Notes under the pieces: model-generated
The model's input: only the letters and a program-made list of their open reading frames with translations
What the model was told of the DNA's origin: nothing
Databases searched by the model: none
Part shown: positions 5,298-42,430 of the stretch, in pieces
How the letters are laid out: the number at the start of each line of letters is the position of its first letter
How positions within the stretch are numbered: position 1 is the stretch's first letter
Position numbers and translations under genes: made by a program
Assembly (NCBI RefSeq): GCF_000620145.1
Contig: NZ_JHVM01000013.1
Coordinates: 1 to 64,000, forward strand
Reading direction: 5' to 3'
DNA: 64,000 bases
Source of the DNA: Deefgea rivuli DSM 18356
GTDB taxonomy: Bacteria > Pseudomonadota > Gammaproteobacteria > Burkholderiales > Chitinibacteraceae

Positions 5298-6371
5298 TTG
5301 AACCTCGATTTTCTTAAACCGAAAGCCCCACCGCTGATCGGTGTGGACATCAGCTCGTCGGCCGTGAAAATGGTGGAGCTGAGCCAAGCCGGGCGCAATT
5401 TCAGCCTTGAACGGTATGTCATTGAGCCTTTACCTAAAGATGCGGTCACCGATAATAATATCGTGAACGCAGAGGCCGTTGCGCTGGCGATTCGCAATGC
5501 GTGGCGAAGGATGGGGAGTAAGGTTAAGAACGTCGCCGCAGCGCTACCCGCTTCAGCCGTGATTACGAAAAAAATTCTCGTTCCTGCTGGCCTGACCGAG
5601 CGAGAACTAGAAAGCCAAGTGGAAACAGAGGCGAACCAGTACATTCCATTCTCATTGGATGAAGTGAATCTGGACTTTCAGGTATTAGGCCCAGCAATCA
5701 ATAATCCTGAAGAAGAAGATGTTTTGATTGCCGCCGCCAAGAAAGACAAAGTTGATGAGCGCGTTGCTGCCATTGAAGAGGCGGGCCTAAAAGCGGTCGT
5801 ATTGGATGTTGAATCTTATGCGACTCAAGCCGCGTTCGAGTTAATGCGACCTCAGCTGCCCAATGGCGGCGAAAATCAAATCGTGGCGGTCGTCGATATC
5901 GGCTCAACTGCTATGCACATGAATATTTTTAAAGATGGTCAGTCGATCTATAGCCGTGATCAAGGCTATGCAGGGAATCAATTGACGCAGGAAATTCAAA
6001 GAAAATTCAATATGTCGGCAGAAGAAGCCGAGCAAGCCAAACGCCAAGGTGGCTTACCAGACAATTATGAGCCAGATGTTTTACAGCCATTTATGGACAC
6101 AATGGCGCTTGAAATATCGCGTTCCTTGCAATTTTTCTATACATCTAGTAATTACAATTCAGTAGATCACATTTTACTCGCTGGCGGTTGCAGTGTTATC
6201 CATGGTTTGGATGAGGCTGTATCAAGTCGAACACAGGTTGCGAGTACGATGCGTGCGAATCCATTTTTTAGCATGTCGACAGGCAAAATAAAAGGTAAGC
6301 AAATTCAATTGGATGCACCTTCATTGTTAATTGCTTGTGGCTTGGCTATGCGGAGGTTTGACCCAGTATGA
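5298..6371 (+). CDS. pilM: Type IV pilus assembly protein PilM
   Basis: A cytoplasmic actin-like ATPase-fold protein of the pilus alignment complex that binds the N-terminus of PilN. The 357 residues begin with the phosphate-binding strand IGVDISSSAVKMVEL and contain a second one, VVDIGSTAMHM, near residue 200, as in FtsA/PilM proteins. The chosen start is TTG, preceded by a GGGAA ribosome-binding site 7 bases upstream; no ATG fits better. First gene of the operon pilM-N-O-P-Q, whose members overlap by 4 bases or lie close together, then aroK-aroB. Confidence 0.95.
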   Translation: MNLDFLKPKAPPLIGVDISSSAVKMVELSQAGRNFSLERYVIEPLPKDAVTDNNIVNAEAVALAIRNAWRRMGSKVKNVAAALPASAVITKKILVPAGLTERELESQVETEANQYIPFSLDEVNLDFQVLGPAINNPEEEDVLIAAAKKDKVDERVAAIEEAGLKAVVLDVESYATQAAFELMRPQLPNGGENQIVAVVDIGSTAMHMNIFKDGQSIYSRDQGYAGNQLTQEIQRKFNMSAEEAEQAKRQGGLPDNYEPDVLQPFMDTMALEISRSLQFFYTSSNYNSVDHILLAGGCSVIHGLDEAVSSRTQVASTMRANPFFSMSTGKIKGKQIQLDAPSLLIACGLAMRRFDPV

Positions 6372-6958
6372 TTCGAATTAATCTGCTTCCGCACCGTGAG
6401 CAAAAAAGAATAGCAAGACAAAGACGCTATGTTTCGATGTTGGTGATGTCTTTTCTGGCTGCTGCAGGGATCGTGCTCGCCGGTTATATGTTTCTTTCTG
6501 CAAAGATTGATATTCAAGCTGGCAGGAATCAATTTCTCACCGAAGAAAATGCAAAGCTAGATCGCGAAATTGCTGAAATTGATAAATTAAAAGCTGAAAA
6601 ACAAGCGCTATTGGATCGGAAAAAAATTGTTGAGCGTTTGCAATCGAATCGAACTGAGACGGTTCATTTGCTAGATCAGTTGACTCGCCAAGTCCCTGAA
6701 GGTGTGTATTTACGAGATGTAAAACAGACGAATGATCAGTTGGTGTTGATGGGTTACGCACAATCCAACGCTCGGGTTTCGACGTTAATGCGCAACTTAA
6801 ATGACTCTCCCGTATTTGAGCAACCGCTGCTCGTTGAAGTTAAATCCGCTATGGTTGGTAATCAACGTCTGTCTGATTTTACTTTAAACGTGAAATTGAC
6901 TCGTGCTGATGAGTTAACAGAATCTACTGCAAGTGCGGTTAAAAGAGGTCAACCATGA
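6368..6958 (+). CDS. pilN: Type IV pilus assembly protein PilN
   Basis: A bitopic inner-membrane protein of the alignment complex. Its N-terminus, MIRINLLPHRE, is the conserved tail that docks in PilM. One membrane helix (about 22-46) is followed by a coiled coil (about 55-95) and a ferredoxin-like periplasmic domain. Its ATG overlaps the pilM stop (ATGA). At 196 residues it is normal in length. Confidence 0.96.
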   Translation: MIRINLLPHREQKRIARQRRYVSMLVMSFLAAAGIVLAGYMFLSAKIDIQAGRNQFLTEENAKLDREIAEIDKLKAEKQALLDRKKIVERLQSNRTETVHLLDQLTRQVPEGVYLRDVKQTNDQLVLMGYAQSNARVSTLMRNLNDSPVFEQPLLVEVKSAMVGNQRLSDFTLNVKLTRADELTESTASAVKRGQP

Positions 6959-7584
6959 CACTTGATGATTTAAGAAACCTTGACCCAAAAGATGCGGGGA
7001 ACTGGCCAATACAGGTTCAGCTCTCCTCTTTATTAGTGGTTTTAATTTTGGTTGTGGCAGGGGGGTATTTCTATCTGTGGAGTGATCAGATGGATGAACT
7101 CACTGCTGCTAAGGCAACTGAAGAGCAACTAAAAGTTGATTTTCTAGATAAAAAGAAACGTGCAATTAATCTTGCTGAATATAAGCAGCAACTACTGGAA
7201 ATTCAGCAATCTTTCGGTGCATTGTTGAAGCAGCTGCCTAATCGCTCGGAAATGGAAACGTTATTAACCGAGATTAATCAGGCTGGGGTTGGTCGTGGTT
7301 TGTTGTTTGAGCTCTTTAAACCGGGCGTTGAAATTAAAACTGCAGAATTTGTCGAAGCTCCAATCTCAATTAAAGTGATTGGTAGCTACCATGATTTAGC
7401 GGCGTTTGTGAGCGATATTGCACAGCTTTCGCGCATTGTTATTCTAAGCGATGTGAAACTGATTGGCACAAAAGATCAAATGCTAACGATGGAAGCAACG
7501 ATTAAAACGTATCGTGCATTAGATGAAGCAGAGTTGCAGGCAATTCGCCAGGCTGAAGCTGAAGCGCGTAAAAAGAAAAAATAA
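6955..7584 (+). CDS. pilO: Type IV pilus assembly protein PilO
   Basis: Partner of PilN in the inner-membrane alignment complex. One membrane helix spans about residues 22-44, followed by a coiled coil (about 50-90) and a periplasmic globular domain ending in a Lys-rich tail. It overlaps pilN by four bases. The 209 residues fit the family. Confidence 0.95.
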   Translation: MTLDDLRNLDPKDAGNWPIQVQLSSLLVVLILVVAGGYFYLWSDQMDELTAAKATEEQLKVDFLDKKKRAINLAEYKQQLLEIQQSFGALLKQLPNRSEMETLLTEINQAGVGRGLLFELFKPGVEIKTAEFVEAPISIKVIGSYHDLAAFVSDIAQLSRIVILSDVKLIGTKDQMLTMEATIKTYRALDEAELQAIRQAEAEARKKKK

Positions 7585-7605
7585 AGGTCTATCGGAGAAT
7601 ATATT

Positions 7606-8130
7606 GTGAAAAGATGGCTCCTTTACGTGCTGTTACTGAGTGGGCTTACTGGCTGCTTTGGTGATGAGCATAGTGATTTAAAAGATTGGATGGCTGAGCA
7701 ATCCAAAGGATTGCGCGGTAAGGTTGAGCCTTTACCTGAGGCAAAAGTTTATGTTGCATTTCCATACGATGCTTTTGAGCTAGCAGATCCATTTCGGGCT
7801 AGTAAAATGGAATTAGCTAAAAAAAGTAATGGTACTGGTTTAGCTCCAAATACAAACCGAGTTAAAGAAGTTTTAGAAAACTACGATTTAGAAAAGCTGC
7901 GAATGGTGGGCACTTTGCAACAAGGTAAAACGGTGCAAGCTTTAGTTCGTGCTCCGGACGGCAATCTGTATCGAGTTAAGCAAGGTAGTTATATGGGACA
8001 GAACTTCGGTATGGTGGTAAAAGTTTCTGAAACTGAAATTTCGTTAAAAGAAATTGTTGAGGATAGTGGTGGTGATTGGGTTGAGCGGACCACTAGTTTG
8101 AGCTTGGATGATGCGGAGCAGAAAAAATGA
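7606..8130 (+). CDS. pilP: Type IV pilus lipoprotein PilP
   Basis: An inner-membrane lipoprotein that links the PilN/PilO complex to the secretin PilQ. The GTG start is placed by the GGAGA site seven bases upstream. The signal peptide ends in the lipobox L-T-G-C (Cys17). The beta domain that contacts PilQ lies near residues 95-165 (VGTLQQGKTVQALVRAPDG region). 174 residues, normal length. Its stop overlaps the pilQ ATG. Confidence 0.94.
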   Translation: MKRWLLYVLLLSGLTGCFGDEHSDLKDWMAEQSKGLRGKVEPLPEAKVYVAFPYDAFELADPFRASKMELAKKSNGTGLAPNTNRVKEVLENYDLEKLRMVGTLQQGKTVQALVRAPDGNLYRVKQGSYMGQNFGMVVKVSETEISLKEIVEDSGGDWVERTTSLSLDDAEQKK

Positions 8131-10217
8131 TGATTAATAAATTCGTAACTCGTTTAAGCCAAGTCGCTTTGTGTGTCTTTGCGCCTTTTGTATTTGCTGT
8201 AGAAGCTTCAAATATTACGCATATCGAAGTGAGTAGTGTTAGTGCTGATAAGCAGATTGTTAAAGTCACATTTAATGATGCTCCGCCAACACCAACAAGT
8301 TTTTCAGTGAATACCCCGCCTCGTATCGCGTTTGATTTTGCCAATACAGCAAATCAGACAGGAAAAAATAGTTTCCAAGTGAACGGTGCCGCACTACGGA
8401 CTTTGAATGTCGCTGAAGGCACTGGCCGGACACGATTGGTATTTAATTTACAAAAGCAAGCAGGCTACGAAACGAGAGTCGAGGGTAATTCACTGTTTAT
8501 TACGGTGGATGCCGCCGCCGGATCCTCTGCGACTACGACTGCTAATACGGCACCAGTGCAAAAAAATACGCCATTTGCCGAGGTAAAAGCATCTGGTAAG
8601 CGTGAGGGAATTCAGAATATCGATTTTCGTCGTGGTACAAGTGGTGAAGGCAAGGTCGTTATTGATCTTTCAAGCCCAAATGTGGGCATTGATATTCGCC
8701 AGCAAGGTAAAAACTTAGTGGTTGAGTTTGCAAAAGCGGGTTTGCCTAAGAATTTAGAGCGCAAATTGGATGTCACTGACTTTGGTACACCAATTCAAAA
8801 AATTGAAACTTTTGCTCAAGGCGATTCGGTCAAAATGCTGATCGAACCAAAAGGAAATTGGGAGTATTCAGCTTACCAAACTGAAAATCGTTTTGTAGTT
8901 GAAGTTCGCGATGCGACACTTAACAAAGATAAGCTAGCGGCGAAGGCAAACTTTAAAGGCGAGAAGCTATCGCTGAATTTTCAGAATGTAGAGGTTAGAA
9001 CTGTTCTGCAAGTCATTGCTGAGTTTACTGGTTTGAATATTATTACTAGCGATTCTGTTGGTGGTGCGCTGACATTACGTTTAAAAGACGTACCTTGGGA
9101 TCAGGCACTAGATATTATTTTACAAGCCAAAGGTTTGGATCAACGTAAAACCGGTAATGTAATGTGGATTGCCCCCCGTGATGAATTGGCGGCAAAAGAA
9201 AAATCAGAACTTGAAAGCAGAAAGCAAATTTCAGAATTAGAACCAACTCGGACTGAGTTCTTTCAGCTGAAATATCATAAAGCAGACGCGTTGAAAGTAA
9301 TTTTGAGTGATGAAAAACAGCGTATTTTGTCTCCGAGAGGTTCCGCTGTTATCGATCAGCGAACCAATCAAGTTGTGGTACAAGATATTCCTTCCAAGCT
9401 TGAGCAAGTTCGTGAATTATTGTCCAAGATTGATATTCCTGTGCGGCAGGTGATGATTGAGTCGCGGATTGTTGAGGCTGAAGATGGCTTTCAACGTAAT
9501 TTGGGTGTGAAGTTACACGGACTTTATGCAAAAAATAGTACTGCCGTCGGCGGTGGTCTAACTACAAAAGATCTTACAGGCTCAGATGGTTCAACATTCC
9601 CAGGGCCAGCGATTAATGGCGGCGCTCCTTCGGTAAACTTACCTGCAGCTGGTATTGGTGGTTTTAACCCTGGTTCGATTGCGATGTTGATTGCGGGTTC
9701 AGATGGTATTTTAGGACTTGAATTAAATGCACTTGAGCAGGATGGCAAATTAAAAATCATTTCAAGTCCACGATTAGTGACTGCGGATCAAGTTGAAGCA
9801 GTTATTGAGGATGGCCAAGAAATTCCATATTCAAGTTCTTCACAGAATGGTGCAACAACGGTTGAGTTTAAGAAAGCAACTCTTTCTTTACGGGTGACAC
9901 CGCAAATCACGCCAGATGGCAGTGTATTTATGGATGTACAAGTGAATAAAGATAGCCGTGGTGAAAATACACTGAGCGGCCCTGCAATTAATACGAAGCA
10001 AATTAGAACTAAGGTTTTAGTTGAAAGTGGTGGCACAGTGGTGATTGGTGGTATTTATATTGAGGACAATAGCAACACAGTGACTCAGGTACCACTATTG
10101 GGTGATGTTCCAGTTATCGGTAATTTGTTTAAAAACCGCGCTGTGAATAAAGTTCGCCGTGAACTATTGATTTTCTTAACACCACGAGTTTTGGAGTCTG
10201 ATCTTACTTTGCGCTAA
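8127..10217 (+). CDS. pilQ: Type IV pilus secretin PilQ
   Basis: The outer-membrane ring through which the pilus leaves the cell. 696 residues: signal peptide (about 1-25), two AMIN domains (about 30-130 and 155-260) that bind peptidoglycan, an STN/N0 domain (about 280-345), an N1 domain (about 375-440) and the secretin core (about 450-690), which contains the conserved [14 protein letters not shown] near 650. Expressed with pilMNOP. The stop is followed by two strong hairpins before aroK. Confidence 0.96.
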
Positions 10218-32709: not shown

Positions 32710-35700
32710 TTAATTTAGCCAAGCTTTTTTCCATTCGGCTATGTTTCTTTGTAAAATCCAGCGATCATCAATCTTTTGTTTTAGTGCCGCAGCCATGTTT
32801 ATTAGAGTTGTTCGATCATTGTTGAGCCAGTTGATCGCTTCAATCCATTCGTCTTGGTTATTTACTCGAATTACAGGGAAGTCACCAAAGTACGGATCAA
32901 TATTGCTGCACAGCACCGGAATGCCTAGAAAGCCAAATTCAATGATCTTTAGGTGTGACTTTCCTCGATTGAAAATATTGTTTTCTAGTGGTGCTATGGC
33001 CAAATCAATATTTAACGATGCGAGTCGAGCGGGATAGGCATCAAAGCCAACACCGGGAATGATTTCTTTTACAAAAGGACGAATTTCAGATGGGCACATC
33101 CCAAAGAAAATCCAATCAACTATATGTGCTGTTTTTTGGATAACAGACTTTATACTTAGGATATCATCCCGATGTGAGCTACCACCTGCCCAGCACACTC
33201 TTAATTTAGCACTATTATTTGCAATGTTTCTTAATCCACCCCAACGTGTAGCATCAATGAAATTGTTGACTATGCGAATATCCTTTATGAAGTCAGAGTA
33301 ATAATTTGCAAGGAAATCGGTAGTTGTTACTAAAAAATCAGCGTTTTTTAAGGTGTAATTGGTGAGGTCGATACTTTGTGCGAATGAAGGATCCTGATGT
33401 ATTGGATTAGACGCTGGGACTTCATGAATCAGGTCGTCAAGTTCAATTCCTAGTTTGCAATTAAGAGTCAAATTATTGTATTGGACAATTTGTCGCGTTA
33501 CTTTTTCGAATACGGGGCGCTGTAAAATAATGGTGCTTGGATTAACTGCAGATATATCAATTAAGCCAAAGCCTTTTAATGACATAAGGCTTATACCTTG
33601 TATGTCATTATTAGTTTTCAGTGCTTTTAACGGTTCTTCCGTTCGATATGCAGCTACAGCGCCATGATCATTAGTCATGGTCAGAATTGTATCTAAGGGG
33701 GCAATATCTATTACATTTGTATTTGAAATGATTCTGAAGTCTGGTTCCCAATAGTGATGAGGCGTTGCTTGTCGACTGTATCGTGCCCAGATCAGGGGAT
33801 TGGTTAGCCAGCGCTCTTTAAATGTGTCACTTTCGTGATGCCATACTGGTTTTCTAGCATCTAATGTTGTTTTTTCATGTTTAGATTTTAGTGATTTTGA
33901 CTCTTTGTGAATTAATGCCGTTTCGGCAATGTATTGAATAGTAAGCCCGTGCATTGCAACCTTCATGCACAAGTCGATATCCTGATAAAAGGTCGTTAAT
34001 TCTTCATCCATTCCATTTACTTGCTGGTATAAATTTTTTCGTATGCCAAGGCAGGCACCTGTAACAGCGGGTACGGCATGAGAAGTGCAACCAAAGAACA
34101 TATAGGTCGCTTTCGCTTTTTCTTTATAAAAATAATGCCCGGCAACACCACCAAGGCCTACGCCTACACCGGCGTGTTGCAGTGTGCCATTTTCAAAGAG
34201 TAGTGGAACACCGACGATGCCCACATTGGGTTGCTCTAATGCTCCTGCAATTGTTGATAGCCAGTTTGGATCAATAATTACTGTGTCATTGTTGAGCTGA
34301 ATCAGGATTTCGCCGCTAGCTTGTTGAGCTGCAGTGTTAATTAATTTTGAATAGTTGAATGGGCCAGGGTGTTGGAGAACGGTGAACTTAAATTCTTTAT
34401 TGTCGTTGTAAAGAAAATCAATTGTTTCTTTTTTTGTGCTTCCATTGTCGATGATAATGATTTCATAGTTTTTGTACAGAGTTAATTTGTGAATTGAGTC
34501 TAAGCAGTCATGCAAGTCTGGTAAATTATCTTTGGTTGGGATTAGTATTGATATACTTGGCTGGCTGGAGGGTCCATAAAAAATTTTATTACCAAGTGTG
34601 TTAATGTTTTTTGATGTTTTGGCTTGGATTTTGCATCTTGATAGATGCTCATTTAGTACTGTTAACTGTTCTTCTTCGCAGAATTCAATAGGGTAAATAT
34701 TATGACCTCCATCTGTGTGGTGGAAGTATAAAATTTCATCAATGCGGTGTGGTGGATTATTTTGTTCAATCGTAAATTGAAGCTTGAATTTGTAATAAGC
34801 TGAAGATGCTAAATTAGCATCTAATTTGATGCCATCTGCTTTTTTAGGGTTAAACCAAAATGCATCGCTGAAATAGTCCATGCGGCGTAATAATTCAGAA
34901 TCAAACTCAGGCAATAATGTTGGTTTGCTGATGTTGGCATGTGAATCAATAAAAACTGTATTGCAATAATATGCTGGTTTGTTTACGTGTAAGTGTTCTG
35001 CAGCAACGATTGTTAAACCGTAGTTGGCTAATTGATCTCCTGCCTCAATAATGGCACTGAGGCCGTCTGTATCAAAGAGGAAGTTATTAATTATATCGGT
35101 ACTGTCCTCTTCATCTGTTAATTCATGCCATTTAATATTGTTATGAGGCTGAATAGAGGAGGGGGTAAATCCAATAATTAAAAATTTCCAGTTACTGTGC
35201 GTTTGACAGCATAAACTGTTAATTGATTCTAATAATAGATGCTCTTTTCCTGGTAGTACAACGCAGGCTATCGAAAATCTAACTTCTTCAGTTAGGTATT
35301 TTTCTTTTAGATGTTGTATTTTATCTCGTGTAAATTTACGAGCTTCAGTAGCGAGTAATACGGTTTGGATGTACTGATTTTTATGCGCTAAGCCTATGCC
35401 TTTTCTGATTTCCTTAGAAAACTCTTCATAAGGCTCTTCGTAATCTGCTCCCACTGCATCGGGTATGCTGAAGTATTGATTCGGCAGGTTGGGGGCGATA
35501 GCTTTGTGGGCCAAAGGAAAAACAAAATCCAGTAACTTGATATTTTCGGTGGCAAAGGATTCGTGCACAACTAATCTAAGCGTATCAATGCCGTGCCATA
35601 TTTTTTGGAAAATACAAAGCTCTCCGAGGGTTGAGCTAAACATACAACTACTGAGTAAAGTGAGGTCCCGAACGAAAGGGGTTAATTGAACCAAGTAATT

Positions 35701-35934
35701 TTCGCAGGATGCAGTGGTTCCTTTTATGGCTAAATAATTATTTTCAGTTGCTTGCTCTATGGCGATAGAGGCTGACTCAATTTGGGGTTGGTAGTTTTCG
35801 GGTATAAACCAAAGCCAGTCATGGGTACTTGTATCCGTTAAGTCGCTCAGTAGGATTTCATTTTTATTTTTTGCTAGGTCGATTATGTTCTTAATGAAAT
35901 CATGGTTAATGGTAATGTATTTAATTTTATTCAT
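32710..35934 (-). CDS. Multi-domain glycosyltransferase (GT2-GT2-GT4 layout)
   Basis: I choose the ATG at 35934 (MNKIKYITIN), which overlaps the ABC ATPase stop, over a frame opening at 36003 that would overlap by 77 bp. About 1074 residues. A first, degenerate GT2-like region lies near 215-330 (ESINSLCCQTHSNWKFLIIG). The clear GT2 domain at about 465-740 has IPTKDN, IDNGST and QLNNDTVII. The C-terminal part (about 910-1070, VCWAGGSSHRDD ... SHLKIIEFGFLGIPVLCSN) resembles GT4. Such proteins build O-antigens or modify surface proteins. Confidence 0.82.
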   Translation of the reverse strand: MNKIKYITINHDFIKNIIDLAKNKNEILLSDLTDTSTHDWLWFIPENYQPQIESASIAIEQATENNYLAIKGTTASCENYLVQLTPFVRDLTLLSSCMFSSTLGELCIFQKIWHGIDTLRLVVHESFATENIKLLDFVFPLAHKAIAPNLPNQYFSIPDAVGADYEEPYEEFSKEIRKGIGLAHKNQYIQTVLLATEARKFTRDKIQHLKEKYLTEEVRFSIACVVLPGKEHLLLESINSLCCQTHSNWKFLIIGFTPSSIQPHNNIKWHELTDEEDSTDIINNFLFDTDGLSAIIEAGDQLANYGLTIVAAEHLHVNKPAYYCNTVFIDSHANISKPTLLPEFDSELLRRMDYFSDAFWFNPKKADGIKLDANLASSAYYKFKLQFTIEQNNPPHRIDEILYFHHTDGGHNIYPIEFCEEEQLTVLNEHLSRCKIQAKTSKNINTLGNKIFYGPSSQPSISILIPTKDNLPDLHDCLDSIHKLTLYKNYEIIIIDNGSTKKETIDFLYNDNKEFKFTVLQHPGPFNYSKLINTAAQQASGEILIQLNNDTVIIDPNWLSTIAGALEQPNVGIVGVPLLFENGTLQHAGVGVGLGGVAGHYFYKEKAKATYMFFGCTSHAVPAVTGACLGIRKNLYQQVNGMDEELTTFYQDIDLCMKVAMHGLTIQYIAETALIHKESKSLKSKHEKTTLDARKPVWHHESDTFKERWLTNPLIWARYSRQATPHHYWEPDFRIISNTNVIDIAPLDTILTMTNDHGAVAAYRTEEPLKALKTNNDIQGISLMSLKGFGLIDISAVNPSTIILQRPVFEKVTRQIVQYNNLTLNCKLGIELDDLIHEVPASNPIHQDPSFAQSIDLTNYTLKNADFLVTTTDFLANYYSDFIKDIRIVNNFIDATRWGGLRNIANNSAKLRVCWAGGSSHRDDILSIKSVIQKTAHIVDWIFFGMCPSEIRPFVKEIIPGVGFDAYPARLASLNIDLAIAPLENNIFNRGKSHLKIIEFGFLGIPVLCSNIDPYFGDFPVIRVNNQDEWIEAINWLNNDRTTLINMAAALKQKIDDRWILQRNIAEWKKAWLN

Positions 35935-36802
35935 TTCTGGCAGCTTCAATAAATTGTTCTTCAAGATTTTTTCTAGAGTGGATGTCAATAAGAGTGTTGC
36001 CATGCTTTCTTATTGTGTCTAGTTGGTGCCATAAATTTTCATGTGTACATGTGATTTTATTTTCATTTTCAGAGTTGTCTAGTTGCTTGTGATCAATATA
36101 GGTAATGGTATAAGTATTACTTGATTCTGAGGTGGATCCAATTTTTTTTATCTGGCCTTGATGAATTAATGCAAACCGATCAGCCAATCGCTCTACGTCG
36201 TGTAGTACATGCGAGCTAAAAAAGATACTCCCACCTTGTTTTTTATATTCAGACAGGCAGTCAACCACTAGCTGCCTGCCTATGGGGTCTAAGCCAGACA
36301 ACGGCTCATCTAAAATTAGTAATCTAGGCTCAATTGCCATTGCATGAGCTAGTGCAGTCCTTTGCATCATGCCTTTAGAGAAACCACGAATTGTTTTGTT
36401 TGCTACATGCGCGATTTCAAATCGCTCTAACCATTTAATACAGTGAGTTTTTATTTGTTGAGGTAAAATTGATTTATGTGCTTTAACGCCCATCTGTAAA
36501 ATTTCAAAGGGCGTTAAATAATCATAAAGGTATGGACTTTCTGGCACGTAGCCCATTTTCTTTCGTGCATCTGAATTACTTGCATCGCATCCGAAAATTT
36601 GCACAACTCCGCTATCTGCGCGCAGTGCTCCTGTAATGATTTTGATTGTTGTACTTTTTCCAGCACCATTGGCCCCAATAAAGCCAAAGGCTTCTCCTTC
36701 AGTTATCTTCAGGGATACATCTGTTAATGCTTGTATTTTATTATTTAGCCTTTTTCGAAATTTCTTGCTGACGGATTCAAGATTAATTGCGTATCGAGTC
36801 AT
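35927..36802 (-). CDS. ABC transporter ATP-binding protein (PilH-like position)
   Basis: A complete nucleotide-binding domain: Walker A GANGAGKST, signature FSKGMMQR and Walker B LLILDEPLSGLDP. About 290 residues from the ATG at 36802; a TTG five codons earlier is possible. It is of the type paired with ABC-2 permeases and the permease is two genes upstream. Location behind pilin genes recalls pilH of Myxococcus xanthus, an ABC ATPase needed for pilus assembly. The link here is inferred from order alone. Confidence 0.88.
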   Translation of the reverse strand: MTRYAINLESVSKKFRKRLNNKIQALTDVSLKITEGEAFGFIGANGAGKSTTIKIITGALRADSGVVQIFGCDASNSDARKKMGYVPESPYLYDYLTPFEILQMGVKAHKSILPQQIKTHCIKWLERFEIAHVANKTIRGFSKGMMQRTALAHAMAIEPRLLILDEPLSGLDPIGRQLVVDCLSEYKKQGGSIFFSSHVLHDVERLADRFALIHQGQIKKIGSTSESSNTYTITYIDHKQLDNSENENKITCTHENLWHQLDTIRKHGNTLIDIHSRKNLEEQFIEAARNE

Positions 36803-38480: not shown

Positions 38481-38607
38481 GCAATGTTTCCGTTGTGTAA
38501 TGGATTGATGCTTTTTTGATTATAAAACTTATGAAGTGGTTTTATATTGACAATCAAATAACTATATTTTAACAATATTTTTCTATGGGGGAGTTAAAGT
38601 TTTACAT

Positions 38608-38641
38608 AAAAAAAAGCCTCACAAGTGTGAGGCTTTTTTTT
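38608..38641. terminator. Terminator after the pilin genes
   Basis: AAGCCTCAC, AAGT loop, GTGAGGCTT, flanked by A and T runs, so it can act both ways. It ends the pilin transcript on the minus strand. Confidence 0.93.
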
Positions 38642-38650
38642 ATTTTGTGC

Positions 38651-38941
38651 TTAGCAAGTGCCAGCTGCGCCAGTTAATGAGCCGCCATCGCTTGAACCTG
38701 AATATAAAGTTTTACCTTTAGTAGAGCATGCTTTTGTAACAGTAATTACTGTTGAACTTGTGTCTGCGTAATCTAGTTTTACGTTTTTCGAGCAATTCAT
38801 ATTAAATCCTTGCTGGATAAAAGCGCCTGTGGCTACGGCCACTTGTTGCGGTGTGGTCGCGCCAGTGCAAACGGTAATTGCTGATGCGGATGTAGCAACG
38901 GTTGCTGCTGCAATCGCTAAGAGTAGGTCGGATTTTTTCAT
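38651..38941 (-). CDS. Secreted Cys-rich protein, candidate detached pilin globular domain
   Basis: 96 residues with a Sec signal peptide ending SASA (about 1-21). The mature 75 residues contain four Cys (25, 50, 72, 96), the last being the final residue. The stretch ACSTKGKTLYSGSSDGG resembles the C-terminal part of type IVa pilins. Its AAGGGG site overlaps the stop of the short pilin upstream, so the two are coupled. I read it as the globular half of a split pilin, comparable in arrangement to PilA-N/PilA-C (Spc) of Geobacter. This is inference. Confidence 0.65.
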   Translation of the reverse strand: MKKSDLLLAIAAATVATSASAITVCTGATTPQQVAVATGAFIQQGFNMNCSKNVKLDYADTSSTVITVTKACSTKGKTLYSGSSDGGSLTGAAGTC

Positions 38942-38951
38942 GGTATTCCCC

Positions 38952-39137
38952 TTAGTTTACAGTGCCGTTAGCCACAGCGTTGCTTAAGAAATTACGGCCA
39001 TCAGATTGAGCTGCTTTGTCTTCGCCTTTTTTAGTGTATTCACTAAATTGAGGAATTGCGATCGCAGCTAAGATACCAATAATCGCAACGACGATCATTA
39101 GTTCGATCAAAGTAAAGCCTTTTTGCATTTTTTTCAT
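38952..39137 (-). CDS. Short type IV pilin (second copy)
   Basis: 61 residues from the ATG at 39137, chosen because AAGGAA lies nine bases upstream; a longer frame is unlikely. The prepilin peptidase site is [26 protein letters not shown] with Glu5 of the mature chain. After the hydrophobic helix only about 30 residues remain ([18 protein letters not shown]...), so the beta-sheet domain is absent. Preceded by a sigma-54-type site and followed, 10 bp on, by the secreted Cys-rich gene. Confidence 0.88.
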
Positions 39138-39186
39138 GATCTTGTTCCTTGTTGAAAAGGGTGGGTAGTCCACTTAGTGTTGATAA

Positions 39187-39203
39187 AGCATAAACTGTGC
39201 CAA
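39187..39203 (-). promoter_or_regulatory. Sigma-54-type promoter ahead of the second pilin
   Basis: On the minus strand TTGGCACAGTTTATGCT matches the -24/-12 consensus with GG and GC correctly spaced and a perfect TTGGCAC. It begins directly after the stop of the first pilin, giving a leader of about 40 nt. Confidence 0.65.
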
Positions 39204-39383
39204 TTAATTGCTTTGTGTGTCTGTACTAGCAGCGGTTAAAAAATTACGTGCATCACTTAGAGCCGCTTTGTCTTCCGCTTGCTTTGTGAATTGTGCATAT
39301 TGTGGTACTGCAATACTCGCCAAAATCCCAATAATGGCAACGACAATCATCAATTCGATCAGGGTGAATCCATTGATTTTCAT
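39204..39383 (-). CDS. Short type IV pilin (first copy)
   Basis: 59 residues starting [14 protein letters not shown]. The leader is five residues, with cleavage at G|F and Glu5 present. The hydrophobic helix continues ...[14 protein letters not shown], and the protein ends after ADKA-like helical residues in STDTQSN. It is a paralogue of the pilin at 38952: both have EDKAA-x-SD-x-RNFL in the same place. No globular domain. A sigma-54-type site lies 41 bases ahead. Confidence 0.85.
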
Positions 39384-39728: not shown

Positions 39729-40187
39729 TTAAAGTGAACTAATCTGTAGGAGGGGCATCAGTCGTTGATTCCTAGAACCGCGCCAAGGCAGGCTAGTTGG
39801 CTGGTCTTGCTCGTACTTTCCATCAATAATCACATCAACATATTCTAGTATTTCTAGCTCAGCGATTTCCTCATAGACATACCCCGTCCACAGCCAAATA
39901 TTCTTGTCTGGATAACGTTGTTTGAAGGCTTTGCAGAGTTCGAGGATGGCGTCGCGGTTGGCGGGGTGGAGGGGGTCGCCGCCGGAGAGACTGAGGCCGT
40001 CGTGATTTTCGCAGGCGTCTAACAATTCTTGTTGAGCTTGTGCCGTAAAAGGTAAGCCTGATTTCCTATCCCACGTCGATTCGTTGTAGCAGCCTGCGCA
40101 GGCGTGGAGGCACCCCATGACGAAAAGCGTCACTCGGATGCCTTCGCCATTCACTAAATCGTGGGTGTAATAGCGATCAAAATTCAT
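39729..40187 (-). CDS. nrdG: Anaerobic ribonucleotide reductase activating protein
   Basis: A radical SAM enzyme that makes the glycyl radical on NrdD. The cluster motif C-x3-C-x2-C is seen in MGCLHACAGCYN, followed by LSGGDPL. 152 residues, normal. Its ATG overlaps the nrdD stop (ATGA). Confidence 0.95.
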   Translation of the reverse strand: MNFDRYYTHDLVNGEGIRVTLFVMGCLHACAGCYNESTWDRKSGLPFTAQAQQELLDACENHDGLSLSGGDPLHPANRDAILELCKAFKQRYPDKNIWLWTGYVYEEIAELEILEYVDVIIDGKYEQDQPTSLPWRGSRNQRLMPLLQISSL

Positions 40188-42430
40188 ACGCTTACATAGG
40201 ATTCTTGGGTATTGGCTTGTAGCTCTTTTTTGATAAGTTCTGCAGCCTTATACCCGTAGTTTTTTTGGACTTGCGCATAGTGTTTAACTCGGCGCATCAC
40301 TTCTTTTTGTTTTCCCGCATTAAATGGGCGCGCATTGGGGCTGCCGAGATAGCCGCAGACGCGGCGGGTGACCGATAGCGTGGCGCTGTCGGTATTGCCG
40401 CAGTCGGGGCAGGTGAATCCCTCAAGGGTCGCCAGCGTTTCGCCCATAAAGCCACATTGCCCACACGCGTCAACAGGCGTATTACTGCCGAAATACGGCA
40501 CTTTTTCGACGGCATAGTCCCAAATGCGCTCAAGCGCTAATAAATTGTGCTTCATATTGGGTAATTCGACGTACGTAATGTGTCCGCCCGTGGCGAGTTC
40601 GGCGTAACCGGTTTCGAAATCGATTTTTTCAAATGGATTGACCTTGTGCTGCACATCCAGATGGAAGGAGTTGGTGTAGTAACCCTTTGCGATCACTTCG
40701 GCAACTTCGGGGATGGTCCTAAATCGTTGTTGATCCAATTTGCAAAAACGATGGCACAGCGATTCGCTCGGTGTGGAATACAGTGAATAGCCAAATCCCG
40801 TTTCGGCTTTCCAGCGTTTCGTCGCTTCACTCATCGTTTGAATCACGCCATGCAAAAATTCGCGTGCGGTCGCGCTTTGCTCTGGGTGTGCACCAAACAT
40901 CAGCGTGCTGACTTCGTGCAGCCCAATAAAGCCTAAAGAAATTGATGCGCGGCCGTTTTTGAAAATATTGATGATGTCGTCTGTGGCTTGCAGCCGAATG
41001 CCGAATGCACCTTCCATATATAAGATAGGCGCGACATTGGCTTTAACGCCTTCTAAGCGTTGAATCCGTAAATGTAGCGCCCGAAAGCAGACTTGCAGCC
41101 GTTCTTGCAATATTTCAGCAAAGTGAGCTTGATCGCCCTTGGCTTCAATCGCGATGCGAGGCAGGTTTAGGCTGACTACGCCGAGGTTATTCCGGCCATC
41201 AAGTTGTTCGATACCGTTTTCATCACGCCACGCGGGTAGAAAGCTGCGGCAGCCCATTGGCGATACGGGAACGCTAGAGCCGGTAATCTGCCGATTGAGT
41301 TTGGCCGAAATAATATCCGGATACATGCGTTTGGATGTGCATTCCAGCGCTAGCTGTTTGATGTCGTAATTGGGGTCGGCAGGCTTAAGATTGATGCCTT
41401 CATCGATAAAGAACACCAGTTTGGGGAACACGGGCGTAGTGCCTTCTTTTCCCAGGCCTTTAATCCGCACGCGCAAGATGGATTGTTGAATGATGCGCTC
41501 TGCCCAACTGGTGCCCATACCAAACGAAAACGTCACAAAGGGCTGTTGGCCATTCGAGCTAAATAGCGTGTTGATTTCGTATTCGCAGGCTTGAATGCCG
41601 TCGTAGGCTTCTTTTTCGGTACGCTCTTTGGCGTAGCGTTCTGGCTCGGCGATGCCGTATTCATGCGCGACGGCGAGATTTTTTTCATACGATTTGAGCA
41701 CATACGGCGCGAGGGTTTGATCGATATTCGGAATCGTCGTTCCGCCGTATTGATGGCTGGCGACTTGCGCGATGATTTGCGCTGTAACGGCGCAAGCGAC
41801 GCCGACCGATTTTGGGCTTTCGATTTTGGCATTGCCTAATCGAAAACCGTCACGCAGCATGCCTTTTAGATCGACCAAGCAGCAATTAGTAAAGGGCAGA
41901 AAAGGCGAGTAATCCAAGTCATGAAAATGAATATCGCCGCTGTTGTGTGCTTCGAGAATGTCTTTGGGTAAAAAGGTACTGGCAAATTGTTTGGAGACTA
42001 TCCCCGCCATTAAATCGCGCATGACGGGGAACACGTTGGCATCTTTATTGGCGTTTTCAGTGGTGGCATCAATATCGGTTTTGTTCACTAAACCCATTAA
42101 CTTAGCGTGCAGCTCAGAGCCTTGCGCGCGGATGCGATCGCGCTCGAATCGATACTGTATATATGTACGCGCGACTTCGGGGTAATCGTGCATCAATGCA
42201 TTTTCAACCAGCTGTTGAATCGTCGGAATATCAAGCAATGAAGGTGTTTTATTGAAAAGGTCGGCTTCATTGAGCCTGCGACATTCATTTTCAACGTAGG
42301 TTGTGATTTGCTCGGCCAGAAGCTCAGGTTCGGCGTATTTGGCAGCCGTGGCGGCGCGGCGGCAGGCATCATAAATTTTGCTGGCCTCAAAAGCGGCTTT
42401 AGCGCCGTCGCGTTTAATCACTTTGAGCAT
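40184..42430 (-). CDS. nrdD: Anaerobic (class III) ribonucleoside-triphosphate reductase
   Basis: Makes deoxyribonucleotides without oxygen. The ATP-cone (about 1-95) begins MLKVIKRDGAKAAFEASKIYDA. The C-terminal zinc site is built from CGQCG and CPDCG, and the radical Gly lies in RRVCGYLGSPNARPFNAGK. 748 residues, complete. The leader of more than 200 nt contains a terminator; NrdR-type and FNR-type sites lie further upstream. Indicates a facultative anaerobe. Confidence 0.97.
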   Translation of the reverse strand: MLKVIKRDGAKAAFEASKIYDACRRAATAAKYAEPELLAEQITTYVENECRRLNEADLFNKTPSLLDIPTIQQLVENALMHDYPEVARTYIQYRFERDRIRAQGSELHAKLMGLVNKTDIDATTENANKDANVFPVMRDLMAGIVSKQFASTFLPKDILEAHNSGDIHFHDLDYSPFLPFTNCCLVDLKGMLRDGFRLGNAKIESPKSVGVACAVTAQIIAQVASHQYGGTTIPNIDQTLAPYVLKSYEKNLAVAHEYGIAEPERYAKERTEKEAYDGIQACEYEINTLFSSNGQQPFVTFSFGMGTSWAERIIQQSILRVRIKGLGKEGTTPVFPKLVFFIDEGINLKPADPNYDIKQLALECTSKRMYPDIISAKLNRQITGSSVPVSPMGCRSFLPAWRDENGIEQLDGRNNLGVVSLNLPRIAIEAKGDQAHFAEILQERLQVCFRALHLRIQRLEGVKANVAPILYMEGAFGIRLQATDDIINIFKNGRASISLGFIGLHEVSTLMFGAHPEQSATAREFLHGVIQTMSEATKRWKAETGFGYSLYSTPSESLCHRFCKLDQQRFRTIPEVAEVIAKGYYTNSFHLDVQHKVNPFEKIDFETGYAELATGGHITYVELPNMKHNLLALERIWDYAVEKVPYFGSNTPVDACGQCGFMGETLATLEGFTCPDCGNTDSATLSVTRRVCGYLGSPNARPFNAGKQKEVMRRVKHYAQVQKNYGYKAAELIKKELQANTQESYVSV

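Follow-up and report, generated by a model that had tools for sequence, protein, structure and literature searches.

The window analysed here, a stretch of 64,000 nucleotides from Deefgea rivuli DSM 18356 (contig NZ_JHVM01000013.1; G+C content of the window 47.6%, genome of 3.7 Mb), carries on its minus strand two genes for short pilins, a gene for a small secreted protein, here called the partner, and a three-gene cassette for an ATP-binding cassette (ABC) transporter of the ABC-2 type. We conclude, with a probability of roughly four in five, that this locus encodes a split type IVa major pilin, i.e., a heterodimer of a helix-only PilA-N and a separate head PilA-C as known from Geobacter, together with an ABC module resembling PilGHI of Myxococcus.

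The two short pilins, A (39383-39204, 59 amino acids) and B (39137-38952, 61 amino acids), had been described in the initial annotation as adjacent and headless, and this description holds: judged by their sequences, both consist of a normal prepilin segment and a helix, after which the reading frame stops without a head domain, leaving 54 amino acids each in the mature form when counted after the predicted cleavage at G^F. Both score above the cut-off of the N_methyl model PF07963 in a Pfam search. In a comparison with the PDB, which was run with pilin B, the top three of the 21 matches listed are geopilin domain 1 sequences, namely 9egp_A (E = 2.9e-15), 7tgg_A (E = 4.1e-15) and 2m7g_A (E = 4.2e-13). 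The alignments with geopilin domain 1 reach residues 51-53, beyond the motif SDxRN; 17 of the 18 alignments with the other listed chains stop at residue 47 or before. The prepilin leader with its N-methylation segment, the helix-only length of about 60 amino acids and the position of geopilin domain 1 as nearest relative of pilin B are what characterizes PilA-N. The several aromatic residues pointed out in the initial annotation are present as well, four in each mature pilin (F/Y at positions 1, 24, 27 and 43; 7.4%), a count that is nothing special.

The gene of the partner (38941-38651) begins with an ATG ten bases past the stop codon of pilin B and encodes 96 amino acids with four cysteines (positions 25, 50, 72 and 96), as had been noted initially. 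Inspection by eye revealed a purine run, AAGGGGAA, which overlaps the stop codon of pilin B ahead of this ATG, and a Sec-type leader ending in ASA^ITVC. No Pfam or NCBIfam model matched the partner above its cut-off, and PF23262 and a rhamnosidase were rejected as identities because their matches lay far below it. Used as a single sequence, the partner had no relative in the PDB, where picornavirus capsid fragments were the best match (E = 0.12), and a search of the genome contigs yielded 208 pattern matches, none of which was confirmed. A profile of 63 relatives, however, retrieved Geobacter PilA-C as the best sequence in the PDB (9egp_B, E = 1.9e-4). With smaller partner profiles, antibody heavy chains are more numerous than PilA-C among the matches and one outranks it once, and several remain with the larger profile, all weaker than 9egp_B; they were not accepted as relatives and were taken for chance matches via a common 'S-KG' stretch. 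When the predicted structures of two partners were compared using Foldseek and VIA-align, PilA-C ranked first with modest scores, and Ralstonia lectin folds, which scored low in both, were attributed to a common beta arrangement. As far as sequence and predicted structure show, the product of the third gene is thus secreted, rich in strands and a relative of Geobacter PilA-C, and it shares the further hallmarks of the latter, being encoded by a separate gene directly 3' of a short pilin gene and having the same predicted fold. The Geobacter-like combination of PilA-N with PilA-C proposed initially is therefore supported by the sequence profile, by two structure predictions and by the conserved gene order, and by analogy with Geobacter we infer that the two proteins form a heterodimeric major subunit. 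The filament had moreover been suspected to be unusually thin, which is not supported since the predicted partner head would fill the place of the missing one. Because no Pfam or NCBIfam model covers the partner, the pair has probably been overlooked in annotation.

Rather than being unexpected, as the initial annotation had it, the arrangement is recurrent. Short pilins were found in 12 of 61 genomes, i.e., the own genome and 60 relatives, and matches to the single partner sequence in 8 of the 61 (E ≤ 0.01). In the order as a whole, partner profile A2 gave 31 matches in 21 of 399 genomes (E ≤ 1e-3): 29 of the 30 loci fetched carry a short pilin (51-55 amino acids mature) near the partner, and the remaining one (L083) contains masked bases, short-pilin tails being present in the overlapping locus L070. 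Additionally, named genomes were scanned with an alignment of pilin tails alone, without any partner sequence, and among the 75 loci returned, of which several share a genome (three in Parachitinimonas), 74 contain a partner open reading frame (ORF). The only locus lacking it (L155) stops at a contig edge right past the pilin, and on the short contig of L148 the partner lies upstream of the matched pilin. Since the query was free of partner sequence, this linkage goes beyond chance; all counts ignore relatedness, and the calls of pilins and of partner starts rest on pattern and longest ORF. All 94 pilins in the 75 loci have 52-55 amino acids in the mature form, no longer pilin being found there by script. 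At least eight named genera possess the pair, the carriers including Chitinimonas viridis, Leeia oryzae, Parachitinimonas caeni, Chitiniphilus eburneus, C. shinanonensis, Chitinilyticum piscinae, Thauera, Sulfuritalea, Sulfurisoma, a Rugosibacter bin, a Thiobacillus bin and many Accumulibacter records. Within the pair, the partner is the more variable component, with a mean column identity of 27% (alignment A6) as compared to 69% for the pilins, and among 77 kept partners four cysteines occur in 52, six in 10, two in 7 and an odd number in 8.

Some genomes carry two tandem partners behind one short pilin (L091, L093, L102, L114 and L126), and genome G307 has five partners distributed over several loci; switching of subunits is possible where there are multiple partners. 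In loci L036 and L037 (genomes G006 and G007), a pilin is followed by a divergent Cys-rich secreted protein, linked only marginally to the partner profile, and then by a second short pilin.

The cassette downstream of the pair, which the initial annotation did not mention and which likewise lies on the minus strand, comprises an ABC-2-type permease (38480-37665, 271 amino acids; Pfam match below cut-off), an accessory protein (37664-36834, 276 amino acids; no Pfam or NCBIfam match) and an ABC transporter ATPase (36817-35927, 296 amino acids). A permease, an ATPase and an accessory gene beside a pilin gene is also the layout of PilGHI. Relatives of the permease, the accessory protein and the ATPase are present in 68, 58 and 56 of the 75 named loci, respectively, many of these loci being cut by contig or flank ends. 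Profile A8 of the accessory protein, built from linked members only, detected 22 of the 399 genomes of the order (E ≤ 1e-10), namely the 21 partner genomes and G363, an 87% complete genome in which the accessory copy begins at base 67 of a contig. At the level of gene content, the ABC-2 cassette is co-inherited with the pilin/partner pair. In a phylum set of 398 genomes, the accessory protein was found in 48 (E ≤ 1e-6) and the partner profile in four (E ≤ 1e-5), this genome plus three from family f55. Inspection of ten accessory loci from this set revealed a short pilin of 52 amino acids in seven (four in f55 and three in genus g230 of family f79), six of which had a partner match (E ≤ 0.001), and full-length pilins near the ABC genes in the other three (L186, L187 and L188, from other genera of f79). 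As both pilin types occur in the inspected loci, the ABC module seems to follow a pilin lineage, whether split or fused. Family f79, with split pilins in one genus and full-length pilins in others, may thus be where the splitting or joining of pilin genes could be followed. When the partner profile was compared with five full-length pilins near ABC genes using hhalign, the expected segment was aligned, albeit not significantly, and the full-length pilin of L186 showed a weak match to the partner profile (E = 0.0069). That the partner head was once fused to such pilins therefore stays a suggestion, and a view found in a passage of PMC6201914 is that PilA-C and the pilin are unlikely to have a common ancestor.

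The machinery for assembly is likely encoded by the pilM to pilQ cluster on the plus strand of the window (5298-10217). Of the standard pilMNOPQ set named in the initial annotation, pilM and pilQ are identified by NCBIfam; the three ORFs between them have no clear name, and pilN, pilO and pilP are assigned by position only. PilB is present in the genome.

Whether another pilin might build the main filament, e.g., the product of a pilin-like gene for 151 amino acids (G000:C1:17346), leaving short pilins and partner as a minor or second pilus, has to be considered given that the genome holds 20 further N_methyl genes, including PilE-like ones of about 150-180 amino acids. Full-length pilin genes had been named initially as a possible source of the filament; full-length pilin-like genes do exist, but by eye they lie in two minor-pilin-like clusters, in pseudopilin-like clusters or alone, and none is a PF00114 gene: this model found nothing above its cut-off in the whole genome, only a match of 14.4 bits to a frame containing stops. 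Most genomes with the pair have no Pilin domain PF00114: it was matched (E ≤ 0.01) in 8 of 26 of them (5 of the 12 short-pilin genomes and 3 of 14 further pair genomes, one below cut-off, from a search listing 3 of 15 with one genome shared) as compared to 43 of 49 relatives without the pair, although these sets are unmatched, the 49 being close relatives and 14 of the 26 coming from the wider order; the eight genomes are in favour of a second pilus. Moreover, at E ≤ 1e-12 pilin B matched short pilins only in 12 genomes and frames of at least 128 amino acids only in 35 others, so that none of the 61 genomes, judged by open-frame length, has both, and most of the 18 long-frame loci that were scanned contain full-length pilins (none by pattern in L047). 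Taken together, we regard a mere second pilus as improbable. Even less can be said for the partner being an independent, co-expressed surface protein or adhesin next to a pilus of helix-only pilins. Its far higher variability would fit such a role, but by structure as well as by profile its best match is PilA-C, and its linkage to short pilins is near-complete, which makes an independent partner very unlikely. Decay of a full-length pilin gene, of which the short pilins would be remnants after a truncating frameshift, is refuted by conservation, as the length of 52-55 amino acids is fixed in 94 pilins and both the pilin tail and the linked partner are conserved.

Homology to Geobacter PilA-N could also be read as a sign of conductive nanowires for extracellular electron transfer. 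There are, however, only four aromatics in 54 residues, and many carriers are, judged by name, chitin degraders or sludge bacteria; a role as nanowires is highly doubtful, and conductivity, like thin filaments, is unsupported. The alternative to be taken most seriously concerns the transporter alone and is compatible with a split pilin, i.e., the cassette might export polysaccharide and stand beside the pilins for co-regulation only. This has been proposed for Geobacter XapD (GSU1501), which is described as a sugar ABC transporter in passages of PMC5585712 and PMC3495685, and a large glycosyltransferase-like gene follows the cassette in the window. On the other hand, the cassette tracks the pilin pair over 399 genomes and an O-antigen-ligase-like gene is found in just 3 of the 75 named loci, for which reason we consider polysaccharide export unlikely, yet clearly more plausible than a second pilus.

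Based on the reading as a split major pilin, we propose that prepilin peptidase would cleave the short pilins at G^F and that the mature proteins would sit in the inner membrane as PilA-N. The partner would be exported via Sec, and its cysteines may pair in the periplasm, where disulfides would hold the small head together. It might then dock on the exposed C-terminal half of the PilA-N helix, around the SDxRN region, replacing the missing head, and the heterodimer could be polymerised by PilB and the PilMNOPQ machinery, with the second, slightly divergent PilA-N serving as a second or alternative subunit. The ABC module would most likely be needed for delivery or maturation of the pilin, like PilG, PilH and PilI of Myxococcus, which is the least certain step. 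A hairpin 3' of the head gene may keep transcript levels of the pilins above those of the ABC genes. More tentatively, and with more doubt than confidence, we suggest that split pilins did not arise as a nanowire invention of Geobacter but form a pilus class of wide distribution, linked to an ABC exporter of its own that would handle this pilin lineage in split and fused form alike. In Betaproteobacteria that degrade chitin, denitrify or accumulate polyphosphate, this lineage would have taken the place of the ordinary major pilin; if so, the xapD 'polysaccharide' exporter beside pilA-N/pilA-C in Geobacter would be the same pilus module.

The terminator-like hairpin (38606-38643), found by a hairpin scan between partner and permease genes, is assigned to the minus strand and listed by the scan on the plus strand; it can serve either strand because its stem is almost symmetric and is flanked by an A-run and, on the opposite side, a T-run. 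A hairpin with T-run directly 3' of the partner was detected in 53 of 61 related loci, these being the ones of the 75 in which partner and permease lie no more than 400 bases apart, in a test designed after the hairpin of the window had been noticed. Among the controls, shuffled sequences had such a hairpin in 27 of 183 cases, windows placed 250 bases further in 13 of 61, and the partner start in 1 of 61.

Among the neighbours, the glycosyltransferase-like gene (32710-36003, 1097 amino acids, same strand) overlaps the end of the ABC ATPase gene, and its predicted product could glycosylate a surface structure. The O-antigen-ligase-like gene beside some split-pilin loci (L161:3504-4784, with Wzy_C; L091, L093 and L141) is a possible enzyme of pilin glycosylation; three flanked loci among 75 are too few, and glycosylation genes were therefore rejected as part of the system. 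The genes at 39729-42430 of the window presumably are the anaerobic ribonucleotide reductase-like nrdG/nrdD. Four same-family genomes (G004, G006, G011 and G036) carry such genes upstream of their pilins, with nrdG alongside, but nrdG adjoins the pilins in none of the 75 named loci, and nrdD/nrdG were likewise rejected.

Compared with known systems, the locus resembles PilA-N/PilA-C of Geobacter (GSU1496/GSU1497; PDB 6vk9, 7tgg and 9egp) in its helix-only short pilin and in the adjoining gene for a secreted head, which is related by profile and predicted fold, and in Geobacter, too, an ABC ATPase gene (xapD) lies a few genes from pilA. It differs in its betaproteobacterial hosts, in the often doubled short pilin and in heads mostly possessing two, four or six cysteines (69 of 77). 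The pilins are also slightly shorter, with 52-55 amino acids as compared to 61 in Geobacter according to a passage of PMC11046646, where PilA-N and PilA-C are described as a heterodimeric subunit and betaproteobacterial major pilins of down to 42 amino acids are mentioned. In 2016, PMC5174107 already gave a list of truncated pilins from Ca. Accumulibacter and Neisseriaceae, which are the same kind of short pilin in Betaproteobacteria; the passages concerned describe an adjacent head gene for Geobacter genomes and do not bring up an ABC linkage. Among the titles and abstract openings listed from the open-licence literature, no report of the pair or of its ABC linkage in Betaproteobacteria was found. 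Geobacter has long been the basis for arguing over whether short pilins serve to conduct electrons, and a conserved PilA-N/PilA-C pair in common water and sludge Betaproteobacteria offers natural cases for comparison: if their pili are heterodimeric and non-conductive, a nanowire cannot be concluded from the shortness of a pilin. In the sludge bacteria Accumulibacter and Thauera, pili may matter in practice.

The likeness to PilA/PilGHI of Myxococcus is one of gene layout, in that a pilin gene is tied to genes for an ABC permease, an ATPase and an accessory protein, although Myxococcus PilA is full-length, unlike the split pilin here. Translocation of pilin is said to require PilG, PilH and PilI in a passage of PMC3724824, and according to one in PMC6060248 no experimental data are available in support of ABC transport. 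The near-perfect co-occurrence of the ABC genes makes this little-understood requirement testable outside Myxococcus, in a bounded system. The PilA-N/PilA-C pilus of Geobacter and short betaproteobacterial pilins are known already; going by the titles and abstract openings covered, the betaproteobacterial partner gene and the three-gene ABC-2 cassette following the pair appear to be new.
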